Of a DNA stretch of 45,313 nt, positions 21,444-45,313 are shown in pieces. The stretch covers positions 1 through 45,313 of the IMG/VR virus record IMGVR_UViG_3300031841_005713; one strand, 5' to 3'. The translations under genes were made by a program, and so were the position numbers. This DNA is from a virus. Each line of letters opens with the position of its first letter. Positions within the stretch are counted from its first letter, which is position 1. The notes under the pieces were generated by a model that made no database searches, was not told the origin of the DNA, and saw nothing but the letters and a program-made list of their open reading frames with translations.

Positions 21444-22436
21444 TTATTTCCATCCTTTTTTTGAAACTGTGTGATTAAAATCACTTATATACATATCCTC
21501 TGCTAAAGAGGAAAAATTAAATTTTGGCTTCCAGCCTAAAACTTTTCTTGCTTTTGTGCTATCTCCTAAAAGACAAGGAACTTCATGTGGTCTAAAATAT
21601 TTTTCGTTAATCTTTAAATGTTTTGATGGATCACCCAGTTCTGCACATGCCCATACCTCTTCAAGAAATTGTTCTACTGAATGTGTTTCGCCTGTTGCAA
21701 CAACATAATCATCTGGTGTCTCTTGTTGTAGCATAAGCCACATTGCTTTTACATAGTCCTTCGCATGTCCCCAATCTCTTTTTGCAGATAAATTTCCTAG
21801 CTGAATATGGTCTTGGTGACCAAGCCTAATATTTGCCGCTGCTAGTGTAATTTTTCTTGTTACAAAAGTTTCTCCTCGACGGGGTGACTCGTGATTAAAC
21901 AAAATACCACTTGAAGCATGTAACCCATAAGATGTGCGATAATTTCGTACCAAGTTGTGAGCAAACACCTTTGCACAGGCATATGGAGAAGCTGGCATCA
22001 AACGAGATTCTTCATTATATCCCAATTCTGGAATATTTGGATTATCGCCATACATTTCTGAAGAACTAGCTTGGTAAAATCGGCACTTTGGGTGAACATT
22101 TCTTATCGCTTCAAGAATACGAAGAGTTCCGTTTACTATTCCGGAAACAGTATCTTCTGGTACATCAAACGATACTCTGACATGCGACTGGGCTGCTAAA
22201 TTATAGAATTCATCTGGTTTATATTTGATTAATAATCTATAGGTAGCAGATGCATCGTTTAAATCCCAATATTCCATTTTAAAATTTGGGTTAGAGTAAA
22301 TTTTATTTACTCTTTCTGTACATATAAGAGATGTTCTTCTTTTAAGCCCAACAACATAATACCCCTTATAGAGAAGGTGTTCGACTAAATATGAGCCATC
22401 TTGTCCAGTTACACCACTTACAAAAGCGGTTTTCAT
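21444..22436 (-). CDS. gmd: GDP-mannose 4,6-dehydratase
   Basis: The 330-residue extended SDR converts GDP-D-mannose to GDP-4-dehydro-6-deoxy-D-mannose, the first step towards GDP-L-fucose, GDP-rhamnose and others. The N-terminus MKTAFVSGVTGQDGSYLVEH is diagnostic (GxxGxxG at 8-14). The active-site set is present: SSSE at 124-127 and YACAK at 152-156. NHESPRRGETFVTRKITLA is the usual GMD nucleotide-binding signature. I chose ATG 22436 because the upstream extension to 22475 would begin with TTG and precedes the conserved N-terminus. This ATG has AGGGGA 5 nt upstream and makes a 1-nt TAATG overlap with fcl. It forms a pathway pair with the preceding fcl gene. Confidence 0.95.
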   Translation of the reverse strand: MKTAFVSGVTGQDGSYLVEHLLYKGYYVVGLKRRTSLICTERVNKIYSNPNFKMEYWDLNDASATYRLLIKYKPDEFYNLAAQSHVRVSFDVPEDTVSGIVNGTLRILEAIRNVHPKCRFYQASSSEMYGDNPNIPELGYNEESRLMPASPYACAKVFAHNLVRNYRTSYGLHASSGILFNHESPRRGETFVTRKITLAAANIRLGHQDHIQLGNLSAKRDWGHAKDYVKAMWLMLQQETPDDYVVATGETHSVEQFLEEVWACAELGDPSKHLKINEKYFRPHEVPCLLGDSTKARKVLGWKPKFNFSSLAEDMYISDFNHTVSKKGWK

Positions 22437-23356
22437 TAAATTCCCCTCACATTTGGATAATTTTCTGTAAACCAAATACAGGTTTTTGATATAGACTCTT
22501 TAAAAGGAGTGTACTCCGTTTGTTTCCACCCTAAAGATCTTACTTTTGTTTTATCTGATGGCTTTCTATACTGACCGGCAGGCATGTTAGTATTCCACAT
22601 TATTTTACCATCATATCCCATCACTTGTGCAATATTGTTAGCACATTCTTTTATTGAAATTTCATGAGAATTGCCTATATTAATTGGACAATCGTCGTCA
22701 TAATTTTTTAAAACAAACAAAAGTTCTCTAGCTAGGTCTTTTGAATAAGTAAATTCTCTAAGTGGTGAGCCATCTCCCCATAAAACAACATTGGTGCCAC
22801 TTATTTTAGCCTCATGTATTTTTCTTATGATTGCCGGTAAAACATGTGAGTTATTAAGATCAAAATTATCATGTTCTCCAAACAAATTATTTGGTACAAC
22901 AGTGATATAGTTGCAACCATATTGTTGGCGATATGCTCTTGATTGGACATCTAGCATCCTTTTAACATGAGCATAAGCAAAATTACTAGTGTGTGGAGGT
23001 CCTAAATGCATTTGATCCTCTGTCAATGGGTAATTTGTGACATCGGGAAAAATACAGGTGCTTAACATTGAAAGAACTTTAGTGACATTGTTTCTTCGGC
23101 ATGCTTCTAGAACATTAGTGTTTATCAAAATATTATCAAAATAAAAGCTAGCTGGATAATCCGAATTGGCTTTTACTCCCCCAACTTTTGCTGCTAAATG
23201 TATAACATGTGTTGGGCTATGCTTAGATATTATTTCACAGGTGTGCTCTAGATTTTTTAGATCGCAATCCTGAGATGATAAATATATCGCATCGCATCCA
23301 ATATTTTGTAGAGCTAAACCAACCATTCCAGTGCCACCGGTTACTAAAAGTTTCAT
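22436..23356 (-). CDS. fcl: GDP-L-fucose synthase (4-keto-6-deoxymannose epimerase-reductase)
   Basis: The 306-residue enzyme takes the GMD product to GDP-L-fucose using NADPH. All key residues are visible: GGTGMVG at 7-13, HLAAKVGGVKAN at ~53-64, the catalytic STC at 99-101 (Ser and Cys), YAHVK at 128-132 (Tyr and Lys), and SHVLPAIIRK with the catalytic His at 171. Length matches the family (about 315). It is translated just before gmd with a 1-nt overlap, the reverse of the common gmd-fcl order. This pair is the only complete sugar-nucleotide pathway I can name with confidence in the window, assuming the host supplies GDP-mannose. Confidence 0.94.
   Translation of the reverse strand: MKLLVTGGTGMVGLALQNIGCDAIYLSSQDCDLKNLEHTCEIISKHSPTHVIHLAAKVGGVKANSDYPASFYFDNILINTNVLEACRRNNVTKVLSMLSTCIFPDVTNYPLTEDQMHLGPPHTSNFAYAHVKRMLDVQSRAYRQQYGCNYITVVPNNLFGEHDNFDLNNSHVLPAIIRKIHEAKISGTNVVLWGDGSPLREFTYSKDLARELLFVLKNYDDDCPINIGNSHEISIKECANNIAQVMGYDGKIMWNTNMPAGQYRKPSDKTKVRSLGWKQTEYTPFKESISKTCIWFTENYPNVRGI
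22442..22447 (-). promoter_or_regulatory. Ribosome-binding site deciding the gmd start
   Basis: AGGGGA lies 5 nt before ATG 22436, which agrees with the conserved MKTAFVSGVTGQDG start of GMD rather than the longer reading frame that begins with TTG at 22475. Confidence 0.7.
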
Positions 23357-24134: not shown

Positions 24135-24140
24135 TCCCCT
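24135..24140 (-). promoter_or_regulatory. Ribosome-binding site for a GTG start
   Basis: AGGGGA on the minus strand, 5 nt before GTG 24129, overlaps the stop (TAG) of the GMD-like gene. It supports GTG as the start of the GT2-like transferase. Confidence 0.6.
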
Positions 24141-25158
24141 ATCTCGTTAAAAAATGTCTTCCAGAAGAAACTTTATTTCTCCAATATTCTAATAAATCAT
24201 CCATTGTTTTTTCAAAACTTATTTGCGGTTTCCACCCTGTGTGTTTGGTAAATTTTGTTGTATCTGGAATTTGTAAATCGGCATCGACTGGTCTCAGCCT
24301 ATCTGTATCTACCTCTATTTTAATGTTCTTGTGAGTAGATTTAGATATTAAATATTTTAGCATCTGTTCTATAGTACATGAAAATGTACCTCCGATGTTA
24401 TAATACTCACCCCTAACAGGCTTATTTGTAACAAGCAAATAATATGCTCTAACAGCATCTCTTACATCTGTCCAAGTTCTCAAAGAATTTAAATTACCGA
24501 CTTTTACAACAGGAGGTATTAACCCAGCTTCTATCATAGCTATTTGTTTTGCGAAAGTGGACTCGGCAAAAACGTCTCCTCTCCGTGGTCCTGTGTGGGT
24601 GAACATTCTTGTTGTCATAATATTCATGTTATATGCCTCAGCATAATATCTTCCAATTAAATCAGTACCTATTTTAGATATCGCATATGGTGAAGCAGGG
24701 TGAAAGTTCTCTTCCTCTGTGATTGGTACTCTATCTGCTGGTACCCTGCCATATACTTCCGATGATGCACACACATGTATTTGTGGACTACAATCACTCT
24801 TTTTCAATGCTTCTAAGAGTTTTGCTGTCCCTAAAATATTTGTGTTTAGTGTGTCAAGAGGTGCGGCAAAGCTAGTTTTAGGATAACTTTGAGCAGCAAG
24901 ATGAAAAACGTAATCTGGAGACGACTGTTGTACTGCGTCAATTAAAGACGGTAGATCGTTTAAATCACCGTATAAAAGTTGAACTCTGTTCTTTTTATTA
25001 ATACGAGAAGACAGATGCTCAATGTTCTCCATGTTATCGTTCCAGCGGGTAAAGCCGTATATATTCCAGTTGGTATTCTCTAGCAAAAAGTCTACCAAAT
25101 GAGAGCCTACCATTCCGGTAACTCCTGTTATAAGACAGTTTTGTACATTTTCAGACAT
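24139..25158 (-). CDS. GDP-mannose 4,6-dehydratase-like extended SDR
   Basis: This 339-residue extended SDR has the nucleotide site GVTGMVG at 12-18, the catalytic YAISK at 158-162, and RMFTHTGPRRGDVFAESTFA, the GMD/RMD-type nucleotide-sugar loop. It is clearly related to the canonical gmd nearby but differs in its N-terminus (lacks GQDGSYL). It could therefore be a dehydratase for another GDP- or CDP-sugar, or an RMD-type 4-reductase that gives GDP-D-rhamnose from the GMD product. The last option would explain why a second homologue is kept in the same cluster. The ATG overlaps the stop of the PhyH gene by 1 nt. The SDR assignment is firm and the substrate unknown. Confidence 0.88.
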   Translation of the reverse strand: MSENVQNCLITGVTGMVGSHLVDFLLENTNWNIYGFTRWNDNMENIEHLSSRINKKNRVQLLYGDLNDLPSLIDAVQQSSPDYVFHLAAQSYPKTSFAAPLDTLNTNILGTAKLLEALKKSDCSPQIHVCASSEVYGRVPADRVPITEEENFHPASPYAISKIGTDLIGRYYAEAYNMNIMTTRMFTHTGPRRGDVFAESTFAKQIAMIEAGLIPPVVKVGNLNSLRTWTDVRDAVRAYYLLVTNKPVRGEYYNIGGTFSCTIEQMLKYLISKSTHKNIKIEVDTDRLRPVDADLQIPDTTKFTKHTGWKPQISFEKTMDDLLEYWRNKVSSGRHFLTR

Positions 25159-26134: not shown

Positions 26135-27166
26135 TTATTTCTCCGTTTTTGTAAAATAGTTGTTTCTTGTTTTATAAAGTTCTTTGTTGTTTAAAAACCA
26201 TTTAATTGTTTCTTTAAGCCCATCGTACAAAGAGGTTTGATTGTTGATGCCGTAAGATTTTGCTCTAGTGGTGTCCATAATCCTTTTTGCATCACCCTTT
26301 GGTTTGTTAGTGTCCCATGATATCTTTATATTTTCATCATAAATATTTCTAATTGTCTCAGCCAATTGTTTAATAGTTATACCATCTCCAGAACCTAAGT
26401 TAACAGGCTCTGTAATGCCCTCTTCAACCATTTTTATCATAGCTTTAGCAACATCACCTGCGTATACAAAATCACGAATGGGGGTGCCATCACCCCAACA
26501 GACCAATGGCGATTCCCCTCCAACTATTCTATTGATAAGAGAGGGAATAACCATAGCGTTTTCTGGGTCAAAGTTATCCCATTTGCCATAAACATTTGCT
26601 GGTCTTACAATGGATATGTTGTTTATACCATTTTGTATTGAATAAGCTTCAGCTTGTAATTCTCCGATTCTCTTTGCCCAACCTGGATGTTTGTCATTTT
26701 CAGAAGGAAAAGTTTTCCAAACGTCATCTTCCTTGAACACCTCGGCAGGATGATAAACACCAACCGAGCTTGTATATAGATACCATTTAACCTTTGCTCG
26801 CATGGCGGCTTCCATCATGTTTGTATTAAACATCAACATTGGTACCATAAACTTCGCTGGGTTTTCACGAGACATTTTAGGAGAACCTTTGATTCCGATT
26901 AAATTAAAAACATAATCTTGCTCTCTAACTGCCTCCACACAATTTTCAAACGATGTTAGATCGAGCTTCTTAAACTTAACACCTTTAGGCACTCCGACTG
27001 GCTCGTCTAAAGAAACAACCGTGACATTACAGTGTTTTTTTAACAACTCATCAACCAAGTAACGACCGATCATGCCAGTTCCGCCAGTAACTAAGACATT
27101 TTTTTTGTGTAAAGTGTTTTTAGAAGTAGACACTTTCACCCCCGTCTGCTGAAATTGAAGCACCAT
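26135..27166 (-). CDS. Extended SDR (GDP-fucose-synthase-like), catalytic Tyr replaced
   Basis: This NAD(P)-dependent sugar epimerase/dehydratase-like protein has GGTGMIG (about residues 28-34), SIVRPANVYGKWDNFDPENA and LVCWGDGTPIRDFVY, all typical of GDP-fucose-synthase relatives. At the usual YxxxK position it reads PGWAK (about 161-165), so the catalytic Tyr is absent while the Lys remains. The start is uncertain: the frame is open to a TTG at 27202; ATG 27166 has AAGGGG 12 nt upstream; GTG 27133 has GGGGGTG 3 nt upstream and would shorten the overlap with the preceding SDR to 14 nt. The fold call is firm. Substrate and even activity are open. Confidence 0.85.
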   Translation of the reverse strand: MVLQFQQTGVKVSTSKNTLHKKNVLVTGGTGMIGRYLVDELLKKHCNVTVVSLDEPVGVPKGVKFKKLDLTSFENCVEAVREQDYVFNLIGIKGSPKMSRENPAKFMVPMLMFNTNMMEAAMRAKVKWYLYTSSVGVYHPAEVFKEDDVWKTFPSENDKHPGWAKRIGELQAEAYSIQNGINNISIVRPANVYGKWDNFDPENAMVIPSLINRIVGGESPLVCWGDGTPIRDFVYAGDVAKAMIKMVEEGITEPVNLGSGDGITIKQLAETIRNIYDENIKISWDTNKPKGDAKRIMDTTRAKSYGINNQTSLYDGLKETIKWFLNNKELYKTRNNYFTKTEK

Positions 27167-27902
27167 TAATAAGGCTAGCCCCTTGAGAACATAAGAAGAC
27201 AACTACATTAGCTACCTCTTCTGGTGTTCCCATCGATCCTCTTGGAAAATTTGATTTTATAAAATTATTAAATTTAGTTGGATTATCTTTTTTCATGTCT
27301 TCCCACCCCGTGTTTGGTATCCATATGCCTCCTGGGGCGACTGTATTGAAAGTAATATTTGCTGAAGCATATTTTGAATTTATTGCCAAATTTTTCATCA
27401 GTGTTGTTTGTGCAGTTTTTGCAACATTAAACCATGGTCTGCCGCCTGCTTGTCTACCATATATTGATGTTATTGTAACAACTCGACCCCATTTGTTTTT
27501 TAACATATGTGGTAAAAACATTTTACTATATTTCATCGCAGAAGTTAAATTTTTATCAATCACCTCTCTCCACACAGTGTCGCTTGTTTCTAAAAAATCA
27601 GGGGAGCCCCAACGACCGCCGCCGCCGACATTATTGATAACAATATCTACACCACCCCATCTTTTTTTTATAGCATTTTCTACTTTGTTAAATGATTCTT
27701 TATCTAGCACATCTGCGGTCATACAAATTGTATCAACATTATATTTTGATAAAAATTGTTTTGCTTCCTCAACCCTCTCTGAAGTGCGACTAAAAACAGC
27801 CACATCAACACCCTCGCTGGCTAATTTTATAGCTATAGCTTTACCTATACCGTGAGTGCCACCACTAATTAAAGCCCGTTTACCTACTAAGTTTAAATTC
27901 AT
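27120..27902 (-). CDS. Classical short-chain dehydrogenase (FabG-like), Tyr to Phe at active site
   Basis: A 260-residue classical SDR with GGTHGIG at 14-20, DIVINNVGGGG at ~86-96, and the catalytic-serine region TITSIYG (S146). The family's YxxxK is FNVAK at 158-162, so the proton-donor Tyr is Phe. The C-terminal PEEVANVVVFL and ASISADGGE are canonical for the FabG-like group. It would normally oxidise or reduce a hydroxyl/keto group. With Phe in place of Tyr, activity is doubtful, or another residue serves. It starts with ATG 27902 preceded by AGGT and is followed by an overlapping extended SDR, so the two probably act in one pathway. Confidence 0.88.
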   Translation of the reverse strand: MNLNLVGKRALISGGTHGIGKAIAIKLASEGVDVAVFSRTSERVEEAKQFLSKYNVDTICMTADVLDKESFNKVENAIKKRWGGVDIVINNVGGGGRWGSPDFLETSDTVWREVIDKNLTSAMKYSKMFLPHMLKNKWGRVVTITSIYGRQAGGRPWFNVAKTAQTTLMKNLAINSKYASANITFNTVAPGGIWIPNTGWEDMKKDNPTKFNNFIKSNFPRGSMGTPEEVANVVVFLCSQGASLINGASISADGGESVYF

Positions 27903-27909
27903 TACTTAC

Positions 27910-28452
27910 CTACAATTTAGTACAAATCATCTTTGTATTGATTCTTGATTTCATAATATCTTTTGTAAATTCTTTTGTTTCGTACTTTTTTAACTGTTCA
28001 ACTTTATACCCATTCTCTGACATGTATTTTTCTATATCCATTTTATAATGTTTTGACGAAAAATTATTATTAAAAAGTATTTTTCCGCCAGGTAATATAT
28101 TCTTCATTGCCCACTTTAAACAATGCATTCTTAACTCAGGATGAGTTGCTGCTGATGCGACATCAATTTCACAAAAGGAAATTTTCATTTTTTTATTTAA
28201 ATTTTGACAATTCATAATTGTTATATTTGGATGATTTAGTGGATTAATTAAATCATATCCAACAACCCTGTCTTTTCCAAAGATATTACACATTTCTTCT
28301 AATGCAAGTCCCAAGGCACAGCCCATTTGGACAATATTTCCTTCACTTGGGATATCCAAATTTGGCAAAACATGTTTTGCAACTAAATATGAACAATAGT
28401 CATATCCATAGTTTTGCCACTCAAATAAATTATCTGTTTGTTTTTTTGCCAT
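27910..28452 (-). CDS. Class I SAM methyltransferase-like protein
   Basis: This 180-residue protein has a Rossmann methyltransferase outline. GNIVQMGCALGLALEEMCNI at 38-57 stands for motif I (a degenerate GxGxG), VVGYDLINP gives the acidic residue after beta 2, and ISFCEIDVASAATHPE and PGGKILFNNNFSS correspond to later motifs. It is shorter than many class I methyltransferases (about 200-250). It starts at the base directly after the stop of the 2OG-oxygenase gene and ends 7 nt before the SDR, inside the same unit. The likely role is methylation of a sugar or small molecule in the pathway. The degenerate motif I makes this a fold-level call only. Confidence 0.65.
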   Translation of the reverse strand: MAKKQTDNLFEWQNYGYDYCSYLVAKHVLPNLDIPSEGNIVQMGCALGLALEEMCNIFGKDRVVGYDLINPLNHPNITIMNCQNLNKKMKISFCEIDVASAATHPELRMHCLKWAMKNILPGGKILFNNNFSSKHYKMDIEKYMSENGYKVEQLKKYETKEFTKDIMKSRINTKMICTKL

Positions 28453-29139
28453 CTATAAAATAAACTCCTTATTTTTTAAATTATGTAAAGAATTTAAGTT
28501 TTCCACCCCAGTGATTTGTAATGTCCACTTATCCTCTATACCAGCATTACAAGATAAATGATACATACCATATTCCCATGTATATGTGTCTCCTTTTCTC
28601 CAATTTGACAAAACATTATTCCCAACTTGGACCATGTGACCCCAATTCCAATCCTCTAAAAAGACTAAATATCTTTTTACTTTTTTTATGTCTGTCACTG
28701 TTTTAGAGTCTCTTATCATTTTATATGTATCAAAATGCCATGGGACTATTTGTCCAGGTCTTTGCCTTATCATAGCAATAGAGTAGTTTTCTAAACCCGA
28801 CATATTAGCCATTTTATGACAAAAGTCTGGAAATGTGTGTTTATTGGTGCTTGTTATTTGATGCCTACGAGTATTGTGTTCGGTATATCCTGCTGACAGA
28901 TATAGGTGTTTTCCCCAACTTAAATTAAACTCATCTAGTGGTTTGCTAGCATCTTCAGGATATAAATCTACAGCATGACCTTCAGATACTTGCTCTGTGG
29001 CATATTTAAAATCTTTAAAATCGCCTATAAATCGACCAACATATTGGCAATCTTTTGATTGTTTTTGCGGATCATAATGCCAATCTTTCATTGATTTTTT
29101 ATATTCCAATTGACTTCTTTGTTTAAATTTTTCAAACAC
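28453..29139 (-). CDS. Fe(II)/2-oxoglutarate oxygenase-like (aspartyl-hydroxylase type)
   Basis: This 228-residue protein is likely a double-stranded beta-helix oxygenase. GQIVPWHFDTYKM gives HxD (H135, D137), GMYHLSCNAGIEDKWTLQIT gives the distal His (H194), and VKRYLVFLEDWNWGHMVQVG is a typical central strand pair. The pattern recalls aspartyl/asparaginyl hydroxylase-like proteins (JBP-type core). It starts with GTG 29139, supported by the ribosome site GGAGAGG 7 nt upstream, and overlaps the aminotransferase stop by 8 nt. It is the second oxygenase of this cluster, about 2.3 kb upstream of PhyH. The substrate is unknown. Confidence 0.75.
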   Translation of the reverse strand: MFEKFKQRSQLEYKKSMKDWHYDPQKQSKDCQYVGRFIGDFKDFKYATEQVSEGHAVDLYPEDASKPLDEFNLSWGKHLYLSAGYTEHNTRRHQITSTNKHTFPDFCHKMANMSGLENYSIAMIRQRPGQIVPWHFDTYKMIRDSKTVTDIKKVKRYLVFLEDWNWGHMVQVGNNVLSNWRKGDTYTWEYGMYHLSCNAGIEDKWTLQITGVENLNSLHNLKNKEFIL

Positions 29140-30070
29140 CTTTATACCTCTCCTCTAGCGGAGTACCATTAGATACTAAAGGCATATCTCCCAATAGACC
29201 AGAGATTGTAACTCTTCTCCAATCTGTGCCTCTTTGAAAGTCTAAAAACCTCTCATCATTTTTATCTGCCAAACCAAAAGATATACAGTCGGTTGGTGTC
29301 AAACCATATTGTCGACATACTTCAATTTGCTTTTCTCTGTACTTATTTTGGATATAGTCTGGTGGAAAATTATTACATATAGAATTACCCACAATGCACC
29401 CCATTGTAGACACCTGTCCTAAACTATTAAAAACATCTACTGGATCATCATTAAAGTCTTTTTTGCACCTCATGCCAATTCTTATTTTTTCAGTTCCGTA
29501 AAATCCCTTGCTCATGCTAAAGGCAACACCTTTAATGCACTTTCGGTCTAAATTAAAATTTATGTTTCGTGCCATAACATAATATGCACAATCAATAAAC
29601 ACTGGAACATTTAATAAATCACATTTGTTTAAAACTTCTTCTAGCTTTGGGTGTATTGAACCATAATCGCTAAAAGGGACCGATACTATAAAAGCATCCC
29701 CTTCTCTAATCTTATCGTCTTCAATATAAGCCCATCCACGATAATTATTTCGCCAAGTTAGCCAGTGATAAGCGAATTCTCCTTTAAAACATCTCATTCT
29801 TCTATTCTTATTTTCAGCATAAAAAAAGTCAAATGCTTGAGTTGATCCATGAACATAACTTAATTTATTATATTTTTCTATACCATGAAGTTTGTTAAGT
29901 TTGCTTTCTTGAATCCACTCAAAAAATTTACATAAAAATTCACTTTGAATTGTACGGTCAAAAAGTCTCTCTGGATCATGTGATTTTTTTATAAATTCAA
30001 AAGCAACCGAATCAGGCACTGGTCTAGAGCCTTTTTGAAGCATCGATATGTCCCGTATTAATTTTGTCAT
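29132..30070 (-). CDS. PLP-dependent aminotransferase-like protein (fold type I)
   Basis: The 312-residue protein shows the fold-type-I markers. YVHGSTQAFDFFY at ~72-84 is the phosphate-binding turn, VFIDCAYYVMA contains D160 that contacts the pyridine nitrogen, and SMSKGFYGTEKIRIG holds the Schiff-base lysine K188 and an Arg near 197. It is shorter than class I/II aminotransferases (about 370-420), mostly at the N- and C-terminal small domain, so the substrate pocket may be unusual. It is the first gene after the 71-nt gap that holds a good promoter candidate, and is followed by oxygenase, methyltransferase and SDR genes. Role: making an amino sugar or an amino-acid-like building block (inference). 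Confidence 0.75.
   Translation of the reverse strand: MTKLIRDISMLQKGSRPVPDSVAFEFIKKSHDPERLFDRTIQSEFLCKFFEWIQESKLNKLHGIEKYNKLSYVHGSTQAFDFFYAENKNRRMRCFKGEFAYHWLTWRNNYRGWAYIEDDKIREGDAFIVSVPFSDYGSIHPKLEEVLNKCDLLNVPVFIDCAYYVMARNINFNLDRKCIKGVAFSMSKGFYGTEKIRIGMRCKKDFNDDPVDVFNSLGQVSTMGCIVGNSICNNFPPDYIQNKYREKQIEVCRQYGLTPTDCISFGLADKNDERFLDFQRGTDWRRVTISGLLGDMPLVSNGTPLEERYKGV
29147..29153 (-). promoter_or_regulatory. Ribosome-binding site for a GTG start
   Basis: GGAGAGG lies 7 nt before GTG 29139 of the aspartyl-hydroxylase-like gene, inside the 3' end of the aminotransferase gene. It supports the rare start and tight coupling of the two genes. Confidence 0.65.
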
Positions 30071-30141: not shown

Positions 30142-31080
30142 CTAAGAATAAATAAACTTCTTAACTTTTACAAAAATAGAATCCTCGTCTATTCCTGCAA
30201 TATGATGTAATTTTTCTCTATCAACATGATAATCAAAATAAAATTTATTCTCTAAAGAAATTGATAGTGCTTTATTTATGTGACCTGCTTCCTTCAATAT
30301 AGAAAATATTTTTTCTCCTAAGCCACCACTTTTAATATTTTCCTCTACAATAATAACATTTTTATTTTGAGACAATTTTACGATTTCATTAATTGGTAGT
30401 GGTTTAATTTTATAAATGTCTACATGATCTACAAAAATATTTTCTTTCTTTAATTTTTTTACAACATTATGAACTTTTTGAGTCATATAGCCACTAGAAA
30501 AAATTATAGTATCATTTTTTGATGTTTGAAGCTTTTTGTATCCAATATTAATATCATCATTAGAATTATATAACCTTGGCAATTTTCCCTTTTCTAGCCT
30601 AAAATATTTGGGACCAACTTTTGTATACGATAATTCTGCTAATTTTTTTGTATTAATATCATCTGTTACATTATAAATTTTAATATTTGGTAAATTTATC
30701 ATAGCTGATAAATCTTGTATACCATGGTGTGTTGGTCCATCAGTGCTGTATGTAAAGCCAGCACCGGTTCCAATTATATTGACATCTAAATTCATGGCAC
30801 ACAAATCAATGTTAATTTGCTCTAGAACTCTCAAAGTAATAAAATTATTTATTGCATAGACATACACTTTTTTACCGCATTTAGCTAGCCCAGCAGCGAT
30901 ACTTATCAAGGATTGTTCCGCGATCCCAACATTTATATACTGTTCAGGGAAATCTGTCTCTATCTTTTTTAATCCAAAATTACCTTGGTCGGCAGTCAAT
31001 ATCATTACATTTTTATCTACAGAAACATAGTCATATAACTGATTGAAAAAGGCATCTCTTATATCAGTTAGATTTTGCAT
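30142..31080 (-). CDS. Transketolase C-terminal subunit (pyrimidine-binding half)
   Basis: This is the 312-residue half of a split transketolase. It carries the pyrimidine-binding domain with the catalytic Glu in INVGIAEQSLISIAAGLAKC (E55) and TDGPTHHGIQDLSAM, then the transketolase C-terminal domain (NVIIVEENIKSGGLGEKIF). With its partner it would move two-carbon ketol units between sugar phosphates using thiamine diphosphate. It overlaps the N-terminal subunit gene by 17 nt with GAGGT before its ATG. Split transketolases are known in archaea and many bacterial glycan and natural-product clusters. In this cluster it could feed sedoheptulose-7-phosphate to the heptose genes (inference). Confidence 0.92.
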   Translation of the reverse strand: MQNLTDIRDAFFNQLYDYVSVDKNVMILTADQGNFGLKKIETDFPEQYINVGIAEQSLISIAAGLAKCGKKVYVYAINNFITLRVLEQINIDLCAMNLDVNIIGTGAGFTYSTDGPTHHGIQDLSAMINLPNIKIYNVTDDINTKKLAELSYTKVGPKYFRLEKGKLPRLYNSNDDINIGYKKLQTSKNDTIIFSSGYMTQKVHNVVKKLKKENIFVDHVDIYKIKPLPINEIVKLSQNKNVIIVEENIKSGGLGEKIFSILKEAGHINKALSISLENKFYFDYHVDREKLHHIAGIDEDSIFVKVKKFIYS

Positions 31081-31882
31081 TTTCTACCTCATTTAAAGCA
31101 ATTGCTAATGACTCATCGTCGATTGCGCCGTGGTGATAACTGCTTTTATTTTCCATAAAACTAACACCCTTTCCCTTTATAGTGTTTGCTATTATGATTG
31201 TTGGTTTTGATGGGTGCAAATCATTAAATGATCTTATCAAATGCTCAAAATTATGCCCATCGATTTCTATAACGTTCCAACCAAACGCTTCTAACCTTTT
31301 ATCAAGAGGATCAAGTGGATGGATTAACTCTGTGTCTCCGTGTATACACAACCTATTACGATCTATAATCGCTACTAGATTGTTTAGTCTCATTTTTGGA
31401 GCCAAACTCATAGATTCCCAGATCGAACCCTCGGCACATTCACCATCTCCTAAAACAACATATGTAAAATAATCTTTTTTATTTAGTTTAGCAGCGAGAG
31501 CAAAGCCAATTGCTATGCCAAGTCCATGACCTAGAGATCCTGAAATAAAATCTACACCGGGGATATGATGATCGGGGTGTTCGCCTAGAATACTGCCCAA
31601 ATTCATCTTAAAAAGTTCAGAGTCGCTAAAAAATCCTAGATCGCTAAGAATTACATATTGGGAAATACATGCATGTCCCTTACTTAAAATAAATCTGTCG
31701 CGGTCAGGATCATCGACGGAATCAGGTGATGTCTTTATAAAGCCACCATAATATAAAACACACAATATATCTAAACATGAAAAGGCACCTCCGATGTGAC
31801 CCTTACCAATCGAGTTGATTATTTTTAAAATCTTTTTTCGGTGTTGTTTTGATTTGCCTTTTATTTGTTTGATATTTAGCAT
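31064..31882 (-). CDS. Transketolase N-terminal subunit (diphosphate-binding half)
   Basis: The 272-residue N-terminal subunit has GHIGGAFSCLDILCVLYYGG (H29 region), RFILSKGHACISQY, and the thiamine-diphosphate/Mg motif GDGECAEGSIWE at 145-156 with the matching Asn in AIIDRNRLCIHGDTE. SGSLGHGLGIAIGFALAAK is also typical. Catalytic histidines appear intact. No Shine-Dalgarno is obvious before ATG 31882, and it follows the E1-beta-like gene by 8 nt. With the next gene it makes a full transketolase. Being translated in order N then C with overlap supports a stoichiometric complex. Confidence 0.92.
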   Translation of the reverse strand: MLNIKQIKGKSKQHRKKILKIINSIGKGHIGGAFSCLDILCVLYYGGFIKTSPDSVDDPDRDRFILSKGHACISQYVILSDLGFFSDSELFKMNLGSILGEHPDHHIPGVDFISGSLGHGLGIAIGFALAAKLNKKDYFTYVVLGDGECAEGSIWESMSLAPKMRLNNLVAIIDRNRLCIHGDTELIHPLDPLDKRLEAFGWNVIEIDGHNFEHLIRSFNDLHPSKPTIIIANTIKGKGVSFMENKSSYHHGAIDDESLAIALNEVENAKSN

Positions 31883-31890
31883 TGTTGATA

Positions 31891-32424
31891 TTATTGGTTG
31901 TAGTATTCGCCATATTCAATTATGAGCGTTGATTTTGAGTCCTCTCTTTCTAGAGCTTTTTTATATGCCGATTCAATATCTTCCTTTTTTTCCAATAAAA
32001 CGACCTCCACATTATCTAACAAGTGCCTAAATGCCTCTGTATGGTCTTGTGTGTGCTGTAAACCTCCGTTTAGTGGAGTCTTGGCTCCGATCGATGTTCT
32101 TATAATTACACGAGGGGTAAACGCACCTCTAGTCATTTCTTCCATTTTATCTAAATGATTTACTAACTGATTGATCGCAAGAAGCAAAAAATCAAAGCGA
32201 GGATAACATGTCACAGGCACATAACCGTCCATCGCCAATCCAATAGATAGTCCCATCTGAGCCTCTTCAAATACTGGAGTCTCTATCTTTCTATCATTAG
32301 AGATTGTCTTTAGTGTGTTATAAATTGAATTTCCACTGTAACTTACAGATTGTCCAATAAAAACTACTCTTGGATCCTCCGCAAGATATTCCATGGATTT
32401 AACCAAATGATCTACATACTTCAT
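31891..32424 (-). CDS. 2-oxoacid dehydrogenase E1-beta-like subunit, minimal
   Basis: This 177-residue protein corresponds to the pyrimidine-binding domain of E1 beta (pyruvate or acetoin dehydrogenase type). ETPVFEEAQMGLSIGLAMDG at 48-67 contains the catalytic Glu (E53). PVTCYPRFDFLLLAINQLVN and TPLNGGLQHTQDHTEAFRHL (His-rich loop) follow. The C-terminal transketolase-C domain present in normal E1 beta (about 325 residues) is missing, so this is a minimal version. AAGGAA stands before the ATG. It lies 11 nt after its E1-alpha-like partner. No E2 or lipoyl gene is visible, so a decarboxylase or C-C ligase role is more likely than acyl-CoA formation. Confidence 0.82.
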   Translation of the reverse strand: MKYVDHLVKSMEYLAEDPRVVFIGQSVSYSGNSIYNTLKTISNDRKIETPVFEEAQMGLSIGLAMDGYVPVTCYPRFDFLLLAINQLVNHLDKMEEMTRGAFTPRVIIRTSIGAKTPLNGGLQHTQDHTEAFRHLLDNVEVVLLEKKEDIESAYKKALEREDSKSTLIIEYGEYYNQ

Positions 32425-32435
32425 TTATACTTTCC

Positions 32436-33077
32436 TTAAAATAAAATCCACTGACCTGTTCCGTGATGTGGATATCCTCTTTCATAAGAGTAATAAAAAA
32501 CATCTTCAGGTGGGTTAGTCTTTTCACCATTCCAAGTTTCATCTGTTGGGGTGTTTGTGCTCATATTATTGTCTTCAACAACAAATTCTATTGGAAGATT
32601 GTGTCTTCTAGAATATTTATGAACCTCATGAAAAATGCCCGTTTCAAAAGTCATATCCCCAACAAAAACCCAGACTTTTTTTCCAGTATTTTTCATTTTT
32701 TGTGCTTTTGCGACACCCATCGCTATTGGAAGAATACCACCGACAATTGAAGAGGTGTATAATTTTGGAGCTTTACAGTAAACACTCATGCTCTTCCCAG
32801 CAGTAATCAATTCCCATAAATGGTCCTCTGGTACACCGTGTAGCAAGGCATGGTAATGGTTGCGCCAAGATGAAAATACCCAATCATTGGGATTAATAAA
32901 CTTAAAAATTTCGATCAACTCTTCTTCGTTTCCCTTGGACATGTGCACTGGACCGGTGATCGTAGCTTTCTCGTATTCTTCCTTAACACGAAGCTCAAAA
33001 TTTATTAGGTCTTCGGCTGATAGATTAACATCGTAAGTTTTTTCGTTCTTAAATTTTTCTGGTATATGGAGTTTCAT
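32436..33077 (-). CDS. 2-oxoacid dehydrogenase E1-alpha-like subunit, minimal
   Basis: A 213-residue thiamine-diphosphate-binding protein. KVWVFVGDMTFETGIFHEV and VEDNNMSTNTPTDETW make the GDx(~27)NN cofactor motif (GDM at 140-142, NN at 170-171), and ATITGPVHMSKGNEEELIEI and WRNHYHALLHGVPE are E1-alpha-like. The Asp and Asn that bind Mg are kept although GDG is GDM. It is well below the usual ~330 residues. I chose ATG 33077: an upstream extension starts with TTG at 33107, while this ATG has AAGGA 5 nt upstream, overlapping the previous stop. It pairs with the next gene. Confidence 0.82.
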   Translation of the reverse strand: MKLHIPEKFKNEKTYDVNLSAEDLINFELRVKEEYEKATITGPVHMSKGNEEELIEIFKFINPNDWVFSSWRNHYHALLHGVPEDHLWELITAGKSMSVYCKAPKLYTSSIVGGILPIAMGVAKAQKMKNTGKKVWVFVGDMTFETGIFHEVHKYSRRHNLPIEFVVEDNNMSTNTPTDETWNGEKTNPPEDVFYYSYERGYPHHGTGQWILF

Positions 33078-33082
33078 TTTGT

Positions 33083-33087
33083 TCCTT
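33083..33087 (-). promoter_or_regulatory. Ribosome-binding site deciding the E1-alpha-like start
   Basis: AAGGA on the minus strand lies 5 nt before ATG 33077 and overlaps the TAA of the upstream SDR. It favours this start over the TTG at 33107, which has no such site. Confidence 0.7.
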
Positions 33088-34039
33088 AATAGTTTTTTTT
33101 GTACCAATTAATTGTTTTTGTAATGCCCTCTTCTAAAGAATTGTTTGCTTCCCAGCCCAACTGATTTTTTGCCTTTTTAGATATTAGGGCTAACTTTGTA
33201 TTAATTGATGGTTTTGTTAAGTCAAATTTTATTGTAATATCTTTTCCAGAAATTTTTATTATCTTTTGTACTATCTCTTTAACTGAAAATGAACTGCCAT
33301 ATCCTACATTATAAAGTTCATACATATTTTGTTGATTTTTAATTGCTTTATCAATAAACTCAACAACATCATCAACATATAATAAGTCTCTTTCTGTTGA
33401 TCCATCACCCCAAACAACTATTTCACTATGGTTTTCCGCCTCCATTACTTTAGTTATTGTGGCTCCAAACATGTGGCTTTTTTCTAAATCATACTTGTCA
33501 TGCGGACCATATGTGTTGCTGTGTCTAATAACAGTGTGTTTAGTTTTTCCTAAACCAGCAAAAAACTCACACATTTTCTCAACATAAACTTTTGTCCAGC
33601 CAACTCCAAAATACTTTTCATAGATGCCTTCGTCTAGAAAAAAATCTTCTTCTGTGACTGGCGAACGGGATGGATTATACATAACCGCACAACTCAAAAA
33701 TAAAAAATGCTTTACTGAATAATCATGGCAAGCTTGTAGAATTAATGAGTTCATAACTGCATTATCAGTAACATGCAAGTATGGTTTTTGTATAATGTCC
33801 TTAGACCCAGATGTGTTTGCAGCAGCTTGTACAACAATATCATATTTGTGTTTATTAAAAACATCTTCAACTCCATTCTTTGAAGTTAAATCCGACTTAA
33901 AAAAATGCTCATTGTCTAAATATTGGCTTTTTCTTGTTAGTCCAACTCCAAAAACCTCATATTCTGGATTTGATAAGAAATATTTTACAATATTCGTACC
34001 CATAAATCCAGTTGCTCCACAAACTAAAATTTTTTTCAC
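33086..34039 (-). CDS. Extended SDR (GDP-fucose-synthase-like), catalytic Tyr replaced
   Basis: This 317-residue sugar epimerase/dehydratase-like protein has CGATGFMG (about 7-14), RHSNTYGPHDKYDLEKSHM and VVWGDGSTERDLLYVDD, as in GDP-fucose synthase relatives. At the YxxxK position it reads VGWTK (about 146-150), with the Tyr absent and the Lys kept. This is the same GW-x-K pattern as the SDR at 26135-27166. I prefer GTG 34039 to ATG 34054, because GGGAG lies 8 nt upstream and the GTGA overlap with the preceding stop is the classic 4-nt coupling. It precedes the E1-like pair, so the two may share a substrate. Confidence 0.85.
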   Translation of the reverse strand: MKKILVCGATGFMGTNIVKYFLSNPEYEVFGVGLTRKSQYLDNEHFFKSDLTSKNGVEDVFNKHKYDIVVQAAANTSGSKDIIQKPYLHVTDNAVMNSLILQACHDYSVKHFLFLSCAVMYNPSRSPVTEEDFFLDEGIYEKYFGVGWTKVYVEKMCEFFAGLGKTKHTVIRHSNTYGPHDKYDLEKSHMFGATITKVMEAENHSEIVVWGDGSTERDLLYVDDVVEFIDKAIKNQQNMYELYNVGYGSSFSVKEIVQKIIKISGKDITIKFDLTKPSINTKLALISKKAKNQLGWEANNSLEEGITKTINWYKKNY

Positions 34040-34446
34040 CAGCTTATCTCCCATTCTTTAAATTCTGCTGCCAAACAGTCAATTTTGTAATCTTTTCTAC
34101 CACCATTTAATTCCTGTATTTTATTCTTTGCTATGTTTCTAATTCCATTTAAACCATGAGTTAGCTCAAGATTATTACCATCCTTAATTCCTTTCCTATA
34201 GTTTGATTCATTGTGCCATATGTGTAAGTTCATCTGCGACAGGACAACTATGGCTCTTATAATATCAGCATCAACAGATTCAGATACATTTAATATCATT
34301 TGTATATCATGACATATATTCTGTATCTCTTTTGCATATTCTTGCTTGTGCTCTGTAATAAAAACTTCTTTAAGCTGTACTATAGATAATCTGTCGATTA
34401 ACTCAGACAATGTTGGTAAATATTTTCTCTCTGTTTTTTCTTTCAT
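34036..34446 (-). CDS. Small helical protein, DUF4254-like
   Basis: This is a 136-residue helical protein. MNLHIWHNESNYRKGI and NIAKNKIQELNGGRKDYKID resemble the conserved halves of DUF4254 (N..LW..E...R and K..I..LN..R.D.i..iD), a domain of unknown function found in bacterial LPS and glycan clusters. The resemblance is from memory and moderate. It is the first gene after a 54-nt gap that contains a promoter-like element ending 9 nt before its ATG. Its stop overlaps the GTG of the next SDR by 4 nt. No enzymatic motif is evident. Confidence 0.65.
   Translation of the reverse strand: MKEKTERKYLPTLSELIDRLSIVQLKEVFITEHKQEYAKEIQNICHDIQMILNVSESVDADIIRAIVVLSQMNLHIWHNESNYRKGIKDGNNLELTHGLNGIRNIAKNKIQELNGGRKDYKIDCLAAEFKEWEISW
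34048..34052 (-). promoter_or_regulatory. Ribosome-binding site deciding a GTG start
   Basis: GGGAG on the minus strand lies 8 nt before GTG 34039, which overlaps the previous gene's TGA (GTGA). This supports GTG 34039 rather than ATG 34054 for the SDR. Confidence 0.6.
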
Positions 34447-35164: not shown

Positions 35165-36655
35165 CTAACCAGTCTTTTTTAAAATAAAGTCTGGTATAAT
35201 AATGTTTCCCTGTCCCATTGAATGTTCATATTTCACACCAGGACGGGCAGAATAAAAAGGAATATTAAGTTTCTCTCTAACTTCTCTCTCCAGTGCTTCT
35301 CTTTCCTTCACTAAATTTTCTGCTGAAATGTGATCAGTCCACACATACGAGATGTATCCACCGCTTGGATCTCCTTTATAGTAATCCTGTTCTGTCAAAT
35401 AATTAAGTGACTTTTGATAAAGCTTGTCACCTGTCAACTTAGAGGTATACACATAGTGATCTCCACTTTTTATCGCTTCGTCAAAGTAAGGAGAGCCGGG
35501 ATATGTTGTAATAATTGTACAATCAAACTCTTCTGGTTGAGTTTGTAATAGCCAATTTTTAGTGTTTTCGATCGTTTCCGCACTCTCTCCAGCATGTCCG
35601 ACAGACATAAGAGCTTTAACTTTAAGTCCATGTTTTTTTGCTATTTCAACGCACCTAGTATTGTCTTCTCTTGTGGCTCTTTTTTTAATGTTTGTCAGGA
35701 TTCTCTCATCTCCCGATTCGAAACCAGTCAGAATCCATCTAAAACCAGCACGATACATGGCTTGTGCCTGTACCTCATTGAAAAGTTCAGCTTTTATAAA
35801 ACCTCTCAATTTAAAATCTACACCATGTTTTTCTTGTAAATCACTAATTTTGTTCATCATTGGAACCATATTTTTGTTTACATTAAGTTCATCATCATAA
35901 AACATGAATGCTTTAAAGCCATATTTTAAATATAAATGCTCTATTTCCTCAAGAACTGAGTCTGTAGATCTTGTTCTTATTTTTCTTAAGAAAGGAGAGT
36001 TTCGACCACTACAAAAAGTACAGAAGAATGGGCACCCTAGTTGAGCTATTAAACTAACCGCATCCTCTCCCTCAATTTGGTATTTGTACGATTCTACATC
36101 GACTAGGTGGCGCGCTGGCATTGGAAACTCAGTAAATTGTTTATTACTTAAAAATAGTGGTGATTGACGATCGTCGGCATCAACAATGCCACTGCTAGTC
36201 TCCAGAGCTTCAAATATAGCTAGCTCACCATCGCCGCAAACTAATACGTCATAAAACTTTGATAATTGCTCAATATCTTTTGTGGCTCGATCACTGCCTT
36301 CAAAGTTTTTCTCTTTTTCCTTTTTTGAAGCGGAATGCATTAAAGAAACATGAGGTCCACCAAGTATTAACTTTTCAACCTTTCCCTTGAGAGCCGCGGC
36401 AATTTTGACAGCGAAAGGAACTTGTGGTGTCGTGGCAGTCACTCCAATAATTTTTGCACTAGTTGGCATTTTAACATAATCGTTTAAAACATCAATAAAA
36501 TTTGATATACCACTTAAATCAATAAAATCAACTTTATATCCTCGCTTTTCAAGAACGGCTGCGATTTTTAAAACACCAATATGCATAAAGACTCGCTCAT
36601 CCAAAAGAAATGGCGAAGGTGGGGTAACTAAACATATGTGGTTATTAGCACTCAT
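35165..36655 (-). CDS. B12-binding-type radical SAM protein
   Basis: This 496-residue protein has an N-terminal cobalamin-binding-like Rossmann domain (residues ~5-150: ICLVTPPSPFLLDERVFMHI, LILGGPHVSLMH, CGDGELAIFEAL). A radical SAM barrel follows with the 4Fe-4S motif C208-x3-C212-x2-C215 in LGCPFFCTFCSGR. RWILTGFESGDERILTNIKK and LMSVGHAGESAETIENT are family motifs. Such enzymes often methylate unactivated carbons or rearrange sugars and natural products. The classic DxHxxG B12 loop is not evident, so cobalamin may bind base-off without His ligation. It overlaps the exostosin-like gene by 11 nt. Confidence 0.88.
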   Translation of the reverse strand: MSANNHICLVTPPSPFLLDERVFMHIGVLKIAAVLEKRGYKVDFIDLSGISNFIDVLNDYVKMPTSAKIIGVTATTPQVPFAVKIAAALKGKVEKLILGGPHVSLMHSASKKEKEKNFEGSDRATKDIEQLSKFYDVLVCGDGELAIFEALETSSGIVDADDRQSPLFLSNKQFTEFPMPARHLVDVESYKYQIEGEDAVSLIAQLGCPFFCTFCSGRNSPFLRKIRTRSTDSVLEEIEHLYLKYGFKAFMFYDDELNVNKNMVPMMNKISDLQEKHGVDFKLRGFIKAELFNEVQAQAMYRAGFRWILTGFESGDERILTNIKKRATREDNTRCVEIAKKHGLKVKALMSVGHAGESAETIENTKNWLLQTQPEEFDCTIITTYPGSPYFDEAIKSGDHYVYTSKLTGDKLYQKSLNYLTEQDYYKGDPSGGYISYVWTDHISAENLVKEREALEREVREKLNIPFYSARPGVKYEHSMGQGNIIIPDFILKKTG

Positions 36656-37813: not shown

Positions 37814-38111
37814 CCTTTATTCCTTTGTCATCTACATAAATGTCACCGCTTGGTTTTCCTAAAAACAATTGGTGGTATCTAACTCCCCAAGCTTTTAGCT
37901 GGGCTTCTGTCAAATCGAAAAAGTCTGAGTGTGCTAGATGACTGTCGTTATTATATCTTCCCATACCCCTTGCGGTAAGGAAAATTATTGTGTGTCCTGC
38001 ATCATATAAGTCGTTTATTTTTGTTATTCGATCGGCAAATGGCTCCGCAAGATCATAGTCTGGCGAGGAGTTTGTGCAGATTGTTCCGTCTATATCAAAC
38101 ACATATTTCAT
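37791..38111 (-). CDS. Mini HAD-family phosphatase of glycan clusters
   Basis: The 106-residue HAD protein keeps all four motifs in a very short chain: FDIDGT (D6, D8), FLTARG (Thr 46), K86 in LFLGKPSGD, and YVDDKG (D94, D95). QLKAWGVRYHQLFLGKPSGD is characteristic of a small HAD group encoded in capsule and LPS clusters. It lacks a cap domain. It lies directly after the HldE-like kinase (17-nt overlap), so removal of the C7 phosphate of a heptose bisphosphate, the GmhB step, is an attractive role. Sugar-phosphate specificity cannot be read from sequence. Confidence 0.85.
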   Translation of the reverse strand: MKYVFDIDGTICTNSSPDYDLAEPFADRITKINDLYDAGHTIIFLTARGMGRYNNDSHLAHSDFFDLTEAQLKAWGVRYHQLFLGKPSGDIYVDDKGIKDEEFFSN

Positions 38112-38910
38112 TTTTAAATCTTGTTGTATCCTCTAGTTTAATAGCATATGTCCCAAAATTCTTTACAGCGACCGATGCACAAAAATTAGCAAACATTATT
38201 GATTCAGCTAAATTTTTATTTGTCATATAATAACTAACCAATCCAGATAGAAAAGTATCTCCAGCACCGCAGACATTTGGTGGTAAATTAGTTCCATCAA
38301 CTTCGCTAGGGAACGATTTATATATTGTGCCGTTGCATTGAGCACCTTGTTTTCCAAGAGTAATTACATATTGTGAATTTTTAGATTTTTTTAGCAAATT
38401 ATTATTTTCGTTCTCATTGATTTTTATAATACAATGATTGTAGCAACTCAAATCTCTCTTTTTTGAATCTACAAACACAGGAATATTCTTTTCTTTACAT
38501 AAGTTTGTAAGCTTACTTATTATTTCGTGATCTAAAAATCCTTTATCATAATCAGATATTACTATACAATCATATTGTTCATAATTTATATCACTTATTT
38601 TTTTTAATTTTTGACTTTTTTGCTGTTCACCTGTATCAAGTCGCATAATGTGCTGCTTGCTTCCAATATCTACAAATCTTTCCTTTGTAATATGATTTTT
38701 ATTTGAAAGTAAATCAACAGTGTTGCCTAGGTTTTCTAAGTTAACTTTCACATTACCAGCCATCCCTGGAGTTGTAGTTGTTTCAATCAATTTAAATATT
38801 GGCACAGGAGCTTCAGGACTTATTCTCTTACACTCTCCAAAATGATACTTATCAATACAAGTGTCACCTATCAATAATATTTTTGATGATCTTAGTTGTT
38901 GAATATCCAT
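38095..38910 (-). CDS. Heptose-phosphate kinase, HldE kinase-domain-like (PfkB family)
   Basis: The 271-residue PfkB/ribokinase-family protein resembles the N-terminal domain of HldE (RfaE). ILLIGDTCIDKYHFGECKRI, then SPEAPVPIF (31-39) and TPGMAGNVKVNLENLG are close to that enzyme, and GAGD at 215-218 gives the catalytic Asp. ISDYDKGFL is also HldE-like. HldE phosphorylates D-glycero-D-manno-heptose 7-phosphate at C1. Typical domains are ~315 residues, so this is somewhat short. ATG 38910 makes a 47-nt overlap with the nucleotidyltransferase gene, has no clear Shine-Dalgarno site, and cannot be much later because the conserved GD motif begins at residue 15. In E. coli both activities are one protein. 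Confidence 0.85.
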   Translation of the reverse strand: MDIQQLRSSKILLIGDTCIDKYHFGECKRISPEAPVPIFKLIETTTTPGMAGNVKVNLENLGNTVDLLSNKNHITKERFVDIGSKQHIMRLDTGEQQKSQKLKKISDINYEQYDCIVISDYDKGFLDHEIISKLTNLCKEKNIPVFVDSKKRDLSCYNHCIIKINENENNNLLKKSKNSQYVITLGKQGAQCNGTIYKSFPSEVDGTNLPPNVCGAGDTFLSGLVSYYMTNKNLAESIMFANFCASVAVKNFGTYAIKLEDTTRFKNEICV

Positions 38911-39259
38911 TAATAAATTTAAATATATGAACAGTTGCTAAATCATTTCCAACAACTTTAGACTCTTCATAATCTCCACCTTTAACAATTATATCAGGTT
39001 TAATTTGTTTTATTAAGCTGTAGGGAGTGTCATCATTAAAAATTATCACTTGATCAACATATTTACACGATTCAAGCATATATTTTCTGTCTGTTTGTTT
39101 ATTTATTGGTCTAGATCTGCCCTTTAGCCTTTTTATACTTTCATCGCTGTTTAATCCAACAATAACTGTCCCTAAAGTTTTACAATATTTTAATAACTCA
39201 ATATGCCCTCGATGTAAAATATCAAAACACCCGTTGGTAAAAATAATTTTATCACTCAT
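38864..39259 (-). CDS. Heptose-1-phosphate nucleotidyltransferase, HldE C-domain-like
   Basis: This 131-residue nucleotidyltransferase has the HxGH motif in TNGCFDILHRGHIELLKYC (H16, H19), IVKGGDYEESKVVG (~91-104), and the ISTTK-like GYSTTKIIKNII near the end. These match the adenylyltransferase domain of HldE (or stand-alone HldC), which makes ADP-D-glycero-D-manno-heptose. A cytidylyltransferase activity on another sugar or alditol phosphate cannot be excluded by motif alone. It is encoded before the kinase, the opposite of the domain order in fused HldE, and overlaps it by 47 nt. Confidence 0.88.
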   Translation of the reverse strand: MSDKIIFTNGCFDILHRGHIELLKYCKTLGTVIVGLNSDESIKRLKGRSRPINKQTDRKYMLESCKYVDQVIIFNDDTPYSLIKQIKPDIIVKGGDYEESKVVGNDLATVHIFKFINGYSTTKIIKNIIDR

Positions 39260-44726: not shown

Positions 44727-45313
44727 TCAAAAAAATTGTCTGAGTTTATTATACAACACTGGGCTCATCCTGTAAAGCATTTCTTGATCACCCTTCAACC
44801 AGTTCTCAAAACCGGCTGCGAAGTATTCTCTTAATGATGTTGCGGCATAAGGGTTTGTAAATATGCCTGAACAATACTTCCAAAGTTTATCATAACCTAT
44901 TGTGTTTGCTAAATAATCATCCAACTCTTTTGAGTAGTTTATCTGATTAAAGTCAAAAGGTGGTGTTCTACCGCCTTCGTACATTGAAATTACATTCTTA
45001 AGTTGATTTCTTTTGTTTTTAAATTCTTTTGCTAAGAAGCCGTCCTCGTAGATCTCTTCGTAGTAAGGTTTCTCAAATGAGTGGGCTAGCTCGTGAAAAA
45101 AGTTCATTAAAATGTCTTCAATAAAATCAACATTGTTAGACAAATAAATTGTACCGTCCTTGTAGTAAGACTTGTAGTTCTCTTTATCTAGGTTTGGAAA
45201 CCTTCCAAACTTTATTTTGTTTACATGGTTGAGAGCCTTTGGGGAAAGTGTCTCTTTAAGTTTATCGATAAAAAAGTTTATGTCTCTGGAATTAAAGCTG
45301 CCTTTGTCTTGAA
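44727..45313 (-). CDS. Metallopeptidase-like protein with HExxH (M34/ATLF-like), N-terminus beyond window
   Basis: Only the C-terminal ~195 codons are present. The frame is open to the right edge, and the in-frame TTG at 45143 is not the real start. It encodes FFHELAHSFEKP (HExxH at 45095-45081) and, ~85 residues later, SLREYFAAGFENWL, which offers a third Glu ligand in the style of anthrax lethal factor-like (ATLF/M34) peptidases. That assignment of the third ligand is inference. Preceding residues (DGTIYLSNNVDFIEDIL) form a beta-helix lead-in. Phages of large myoviruses encode such domains, whose targets are not known. It ends 7 nt before the nuclease gene. Confidence 0.75.
   Translation of the reverse strand, partial: QDKGSFNSRDINFFIDKLKETLSPKALNHVNKIKFGRFPNLDKENYKSYYKDGTIYLSNNVDFIEDILMNFFHELAHSFEKPYYEEIYEDGFLAKEFKNKRNQLKNVISMYEGGRTPPFDFNQINYSKELDDYLANTIGYDKLWKYCSGIFTNPYAATSLREYFAAGFENWLKGDQEMLYRMSPVLYNKLRQFF

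Follow-up and report, generated by a model that had tools for sequence, protein, structure and literature searches.

Why would a phage carry four genes for thiamine-diphosphate (ThDP) enzymes side by side? The question is raised by IMG/VR record IMGVR_UViG_3300031841_005713, a contig of 45,313 bases from an uncultured marine phage (the window, analyzed at its full length), whose proteins include matches to a baseplate wedge and a late sigma factor. Sugar genes occupy about 21.4–43.9 kb of its minus strand, and among them four open frames at 30142–33077 encode a compact E1-alpha-like chain, an E1-beta-like chain and the two halves of a split transketolase. The answer that we favor, and hold to be probable though far from certain, is that these genes encode a pair of ThDP carboligases that work on nucleotide sugars, as a module for C2 branching.

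Four ThDP genes with conserved catalytic residues

A first-pass annotation, made from the letters alone, had proposed the row of four, and the reading frames, Pfam and the relatives in the PDB all bear it out. The first gene, E1a (32436..33077, minus strand as all sugar genes below; 213 aa), encodes a PP-domain subunit and matches Pfam E1_dh at 4.5e-17, while the second, E1b (31891..32424, 177 aa), encodes a Pyr-domain subunit that matches Transket_pyr at 3.2e-13 and nothing else in Pfam. Their closest PDB relatives are the E1-alpha chain of pyruvate dehydrogenase (PDH) and the E1-beta chain of 2-oxoacid dehydrogenases, respectively. The N-terminal transketolase chain TKN (31064..31882, 272 aa; PP domain, Transketolase_N 1.9e-42) and the C-terminal chain TKC (30142..31080, 312 aa; Pyr and C domains, Transket_pyr 6.6e-25 and Transketolase_C 1.2e-14) complete the row and find the split transketolase of Carboxydothermus, TKN with 6yak as best match (2.7e-59) and TKC with 6yaj (2.9e-31). 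All four identifications far exceed what chance would give.

The E1 pair had been described as minimal, with a beta chain that lacks the C-terminal domain and with no E2, and this description holds. E1b ends after its single Pyr domain, and E1a is shortened as well: counted from the ATG at 33077 it has 213 aa, and a start at the alternative TTG at 33107 would lengthen it to 223 aa, compared to 365 aa in human PDH E1-alpha. No E2 or lipoyl domain was detected by Pfam among the sugar-cluster genes scanned in the window. In this the pair is unlike the E1 of pyruvate or branched-chain 2-oxoacid dehydrogenase complexes, although the window is a fragment and an E2 may lie elsewhere in the phage or in its host. 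In two-domain size the pair may be compared with decarboxylases of the sulfopyruvate/phosphonopyruvate type, but the Pfam and structural matches of a fused homologue (below) are led by E1-beta.

Loss of the Mg- or Glu-coordinating residues had been named as an outcome that would refute the proposal. We found the ThDP, Mg and catalytic-Glu residues intact in alignments of 121 E1a and 116 E1b chains. In E1a the residues H45, G140, D141, E168, N170 and H204 are essentially invariant; G140-D141 and N170, which form the GDx25-30N motif of the PP domain, are present in 121/121 chains, and H74 and H204 each in at least 99% of them. In E1b the residues E53, H90 and H124 are invariant (E53 and H124 in 116/116 chains), E53 being the catalytic Glu that the Pyr domain provides on the partner chain. 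Our reading of the alignments is that H74 and H204 of E1a, together with H124 of E1b, probably represent the three active-site histidines of PDH.

The small size of E1a does not look like truncation. We predicted the structure of a naturally fused homologue of 399 aa from a Prochlorococcus-derived locus (L025), with a mean pLDDT of 83.6 and a pTM of 0.87. One half aligns with residues 1–176 of E1-beta (Z 20.9), and the match of the other with E1-alpha runs as far as residue 268 (Z 19.3); in the VIA-align comparison E1-beta leads, with transketolase (Z 19.7) and E1-alpha close behind. Because the match with E1-alpha extends to residue 268, the PP domain of E1a appears compact and not cut, and we rejected the idea that E1a is truncated after the NN motif. 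Fused forms are also found in the cyanophages S-SM2 and P-TIM68. In a tree of E1a the minimal chains all cluster together, separated from full-size E1 (100/99, branch 1.85), which, with the root placed at the midpoint, is consistent with a single origin but does not prove it.

The split transketolase carries its PP, Pyr and C domains with the ThDP, Mg and Glu residues present, and R8, E55, H118 and R161 of TKC are invariant in 58 viral chains. For the sugar-phosphate pocket we take the relevant residues to be R358, S385, H461 and R520 in E. coli numbering, to which TKC was assigned by pairwise alignment (chains of about 160–179 aa, of the Zn-alcohol dehydrogenase class described below, fell outside the length filter). 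The residues assigned to the phosphate-binding arginines R358 and R520, R8 and R161, are kept in 58/58 chains, G106 stands in 58/58 at the place assigned to H461, and the Ser assigned to S385 is lost in all 58 as well. These changes suggest an altered substrate. The Carboxydothermus enzyme (6yak/6yaj, PMC7661550) has the same division into a PP chain and a Pyr+C chain, and the catalytic residues are kept in both; the viral enzyme differs from it by the loss of two residues assigned to the pocket and by its sugar-nucleotide gene context.

One may instead regard the transketolase as a pentose-phosphate enzyme for precursor supply, which would raise sedoheptulose-7-phosphate for heptose nucleotides or phosphoribosyl units for replication, the E1 pair then being a separate decarboxylase. 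The two retained arginines would fit such a role, as would the HldA- and HldC-like genes of the same cluster, but the Gly and the missing Ser in all 58 chains, at positions assigned by alignment, speak against it. Viral transketolase has been listed among the genes of the pentose-phosphate pathway (PMC4053976). However, transketolase pairs also occur immediately next to RmlC and ColD genes or in between them, and in 80 viral transketolase loci we counted a heptose-type kinase 25 times and RmlC equally 25 times, which means that heptose genes do not predominate as partners. We regard precursor supply as unlikely.

Loci L139, L146, L162, L166 and L169 have clusters of Zn-alcohol dehydrogenase, TKN and TKC genes, with a TKC of only 160–179 aa that consists of the Pyr domain alone. 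Here, as in E1b, the C-terminal domain has been lost, and the fused cyanophage E1 occupies the same slot.

Recurrence in viruses and cells

The same quartet recurs outside the window. Its absence from all relatives had been put forward as the pattern that a recent random insertion would leave, and we found instead that the E1 pair and the split transketolase occur together in 13 contigs including the window, two of which are near-identical. E1a, E1b, TKN and TKC follow one another directly, with no gene in between, in the window and in L100, L101, L102, L106 and L107, and in L105 the row is interrupted by one mechanically called reading frame. Since the order recurs in five other viral contigs, it is not the product of a chance insertion. 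L106 and L107 lie in contigs of 350 and 548 kb, and their E1 chains are full-size and about 30% identical. That the genes are unrelated passengers, inserted recently or decaying, would fit the high plasticity of this region in T4-like marine phages (PMC7029224), but it is refuted by conservation: the catalytic residues are invariant, the pair is present in hundreds of contigs, and the order persists in these two large contigs with diverged E1 chains. We consider this explanation most improbable.

The quartet is nevertheless no fixed unit, an idea that we rejected: TKN accompanies no more than 5 of the 86 viral E1 loci examined, and as a rule the two enzymes are encoded apart. Where both enzymes are present, a reductase is nearly always at hand. 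The window has a FabG-like short-chain dehydrogenase/reductase (SDR) at 27120..27902, and the other contigs with both enzymes have either a relative of it that is 50–79% identical or an aldo-keto reductase (AKR), so that 12 of the 13 contigs carry one or the other; L329 has neither.

The first-pass annotation called the arrangement striking in a phage. The pair is not confined to this one: hundreds of viral contigs carry it, and so do SAR11-family chromosomes. Relatives of E1a are encoded in at least 571 viral stretches according to the alignment search. At E ≤ 1e-30, minimal-size relatives are present in 20 of 197 SAR11-family genomes, while E1a is matched in 5 of 201 genomes of the Prochlorococcus family (three of the five with longer, weaker chains) and in 3 of 291 genomes of the class of a Desulfobacterales genome. 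The SAR11 count made us reject our earlier view, based on at least 12 loci in a first genome scan, that cells hardly ever carry the minimal E1.

SAR11-family contigs among L350–L356 show the order E1a-E1b-HddA-RfbH-RmlC-SDR-HddC/GmhB, and by inspection the cluster of L356 has housekeeping genes on its flanks. L357, from a Prochlorococcus-family genome, additionally has GmhA, GmhB and HddC. All scores of HddA, HddC, GmhA and GmhB are under the curated cut-offs, and a GDP-heptose route is thus a likely assignment only. Several of the SAR11-family contigs contain a second, full-size E1 pair and a gene of the acetolactate synthase (ALS) type. In L350–L352, L354 and L355 the two full-size chains and the two minimal chains are consecutive (E1a-full, E1b-full, E1a-min, E1b-min), in some cases together with the ALS-type gene. 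Four partial transketolases of uncertain function were reported from a hypervariable region of a freshwater SAR11 (Fonsibacter; PMC6811365), and our guess is that these may be the same row of four.

The neighborhood of keto-sugar genes

What accompanies the E1 pair? Among the 86 viral E1a loci we found E1b in 83, an RmlC-like gene in 76, a ColD-like gene in 37, an HldA-like kinase in 32 and TKN in the said 5, counts that are approximate because best-hit blast includes distant SDR and DegT relatives. Of the loci of at least 18 kb, 57/60 carry an RmlC, ColD or GMD-type gene. The ColD-like gene that we tested matches RfbH best (208.5 bits, cut-off 423), and its family keeps a His in place of the lysine that binds pyridoxal phosphate (PLP).

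The association is also seen from the other side. In viral loci picked only by the RfbH/ColD-like dehydratase, as its best 80 matches, a ThDP enzyme is encoded one to four genes away in 76/80; the 40 loci that reach 15 kb or more all have one, the four without are short contigs, and His replaces the PLP lysine in all 80. The enzymes are about 53 times minimal E1, 11 times full-size E1, 10 times split transketolase and 4 times ALS-type. A second set of 80 loci, again a list of best matches, was picked by a heptose-type nucleotidyltransferase. Restricted to loci of 15 kb or more, this set shows a ThDP enzyme in 9/11 with ColD-His or RmlC versus 3/35 without (Fisher p 9e-6). Finally, RmlC is found in 76/86 loci with E1a versus 4/43 without (p 4e-19, at mixed length limits), and those four carry another ThDP enzyme. 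TKN and the neighboring nucleotidyltransferase were searched by alignments; single-sequence scans with TKN and with the PfkB kinase found no relatives.

The first-pass interpretation of the row stands in part. That the row points to C–C bond chemistry on sugars and not to central metabolism is well supported by the recurring neighborhood of RmlC-like, RfbH/ColD, 4,6-dehydratase and heptose-nucleotide genes, and it fits published C2-branching enzymes of these classes (PMC12247030), but the pair and the transketolase, taken there as one quartet, are usually separate. A simple 2-oxoacid decarboxylase, or a source of an aldehyde or acyl group, would be another role for the E1 pair, in which a small molecule decorates the glycan and no sugar C–C bond is formed. 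Such a role would suit a pair that keeps only the PP and Pyr domains and for which no E2 was detected, and weak aminotransferase, PhyH-like and methyltransferase matches in the window could act on the small molecule. It leaves unexplained, however, why E1-, transketolase- and ALS-type enzymes are swapped beside the same keto-sugar enzymes, and we think it quite unlikely.

Proposed pathway and known systems

For the C2-branching module that we favor, the inferred scheme, from the substrates and the site of the branch to the sequence of reactions and their product, is as follows. The compact E1 pair would convert a 2-oxoacid, with pyruvate as the likeliest one, to hydroxyethyl-ThDP and transfer two carbons from it onto the keto group of a 4-keto-6-deoxy sugar that is bound to a nucleotide, so that a sugar with a C-acetyl branch results. 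In the same way, a hydroxyacetyl unit taken from a ketose would be added by the split transketolase. The ketone of the branch would then be reduced by an SDR (27120–27902 here, an AKR in most relatives), and glycosyltransferases would put the branched sugar into a surface glycan. A keto-sugar-forming gene is present in the cluster: the GDP-mannose 4,6-dehydratase at 21444..22475 scores 417.5 bits as gmd equivalog (cut-off 415) and is the putative source of the GDP-4-keto-6-deoxy sugar.

Several observations weigh against this assignment. Foremost, the window has no RmlC-, ColD- or AKR-type gene. What ties it to the pathway is therefore Gmd, together with SDR families that it shares with loci in which such genes are present, and its sugar may be a different one than in most relatives. 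The fused E1 of cyanophages has a Zn-alcohol dehydrogenase and heptose genes as neighbors, with neither RmlC nor ColD among them. The query for the ColD-picked loci was itself built from loci with ThDP genes, and the p-values given above overstate independence, as the rows compared are related phages. We also know of no activity for any minimal E1.

Close parallels come from sugar branching in other systems, in which YerE-like, E1-type and, as proposed, split-gene transketolase enzymes add branches to keto-sugars (PMC12247030). The E1-type enzymes (KbDH in vitro, AviB1/B2, Pau11/12), YerE and the split transketolases are those for which C2 branching was shown or proposed. AviB1/AviB2, Pau11/Pau12 (PMC4425429, PMC4753412), EvdU5/EvdS3 of everninomicin (PMC10338323) and KbDH-alpha/beta are, like the phage pair, two-chain E1-type ThDP enzymes encoded in a sugar cluster. 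In the cases studied, pyruvate is the donor of these antibiotic (alpha-KADH2) enzymes, and a reductase may follow, as the AKR Pau7 reduces such a branch. They differ in size, Pau11/Pau12 having 325/345 aa (PMC4425429) compared to the 213/177 aa of the phage chains without C-terminal domain, and in purpose, since they serve antibiotics whereas the phage and SAR11 pair would serve a surface glycan. In yersiniose formation by YerE, a ThDP enzyme is joined with an RfbH-like 3-dehydratase as it is in relatives of the window, also with the ALS type; YerE, however, is a single-chain decarboxylase-type flavoprotein, and both an ALS-type gene and RfbH are missing from the window. The split transketolases proposed for miharamycin and amipurimycin (PMC12247030) are alike in their two genes, the miharamycin role itself being unproven. 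A full-text search for phage, "branched-chain sugar" and thiamine found no paper, within a limited coverage of the literature.

A wider proposal, which we advance tentatively as a less likely one, is that the compact two-domain E1 represents an undescribed family of ThDP carboligases common to marine phages and SAR11 that makes C2-branched sugars of nine carbons (C9) from heptose nucleotides, with E1, transketolase and ALS as exchangeable modules. If these readings are true, numerous viral genes that are at present taken for "transketolase" or "dehydrogenase E1" auxiliary genes of carbon metabolism are tools for glycans. Some of the most abundant bacteria of the ocean and their phages would then make branched-chain sugars for the surface, which would affect phage recognition, and the minimal E1 would be an unusually small ThDP carboligase, useful to enzymology. 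With such a set of exchangeable ThDP modules, the question of the substrate can be put to a direct test. SAR11 myophages have genes of the lipopolysaccharide type in their host recognition cluster (PMC7029224), and the window may be a cluster of this type.

Other genes of the window

Further sugar genes surround the quartet. An SDR of the epimerase/GDP-fucose-synthase type (33086..34054) adjoins E1a, and its best-matching family is present in 55/86 viral E1 loci. The SDR at 26135..27100, whose family is present in 75/86 E1 loci and is the commonest after E1b and RmlC, has GWxK at the place of YxxxK; GWxK is found in 54/64 relatives of at least 45% identity, and the catalytic Tyr seems absent. 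The 4,6-dehydratase-like SDR at 24139..25158 keeps the SSE and YxxxK motifs (family in 48/86 loci) and is the second 4,6-dehydratase gene of the window, Gmd being the one above the gmd cut-off. A GDP-L-fucose-synthase-like SDR follows at 22436..23356 (267.5 bits, under the cut-off of 500). The heptose genes are an HldA-like (RfaE domain I) heptose-7-phosphate kinase at 38095..38910 (167 bits, cut-off 345) and an HldC-like (RfaE domain II) nucleotidyltransferase at 38867..39259 (159.6 bits, cut-off 181.5).

A 1453-aa protein (12023–16384), probably structural, has no match in 50,697 phage records and in no isolate phage, and a 138-aa reading frame at 44727–45143 contains a HELAH motif, with sub-threshold metallopeptidase matches only. 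Between the quartet and the SDRs (27910–30070) we find a weak aminotransferase match with a Lys motif, an unassigned gene and a weak methyltransferase match, and the same three-gene run precedes the transketolase pair in L005. A B12-binding radical SAM protein is encoded near the quartet at 35165–36655, and in loci of archaea, bacteria and jumbo phages, too, E1 pairs have radical SAM genes next to them.
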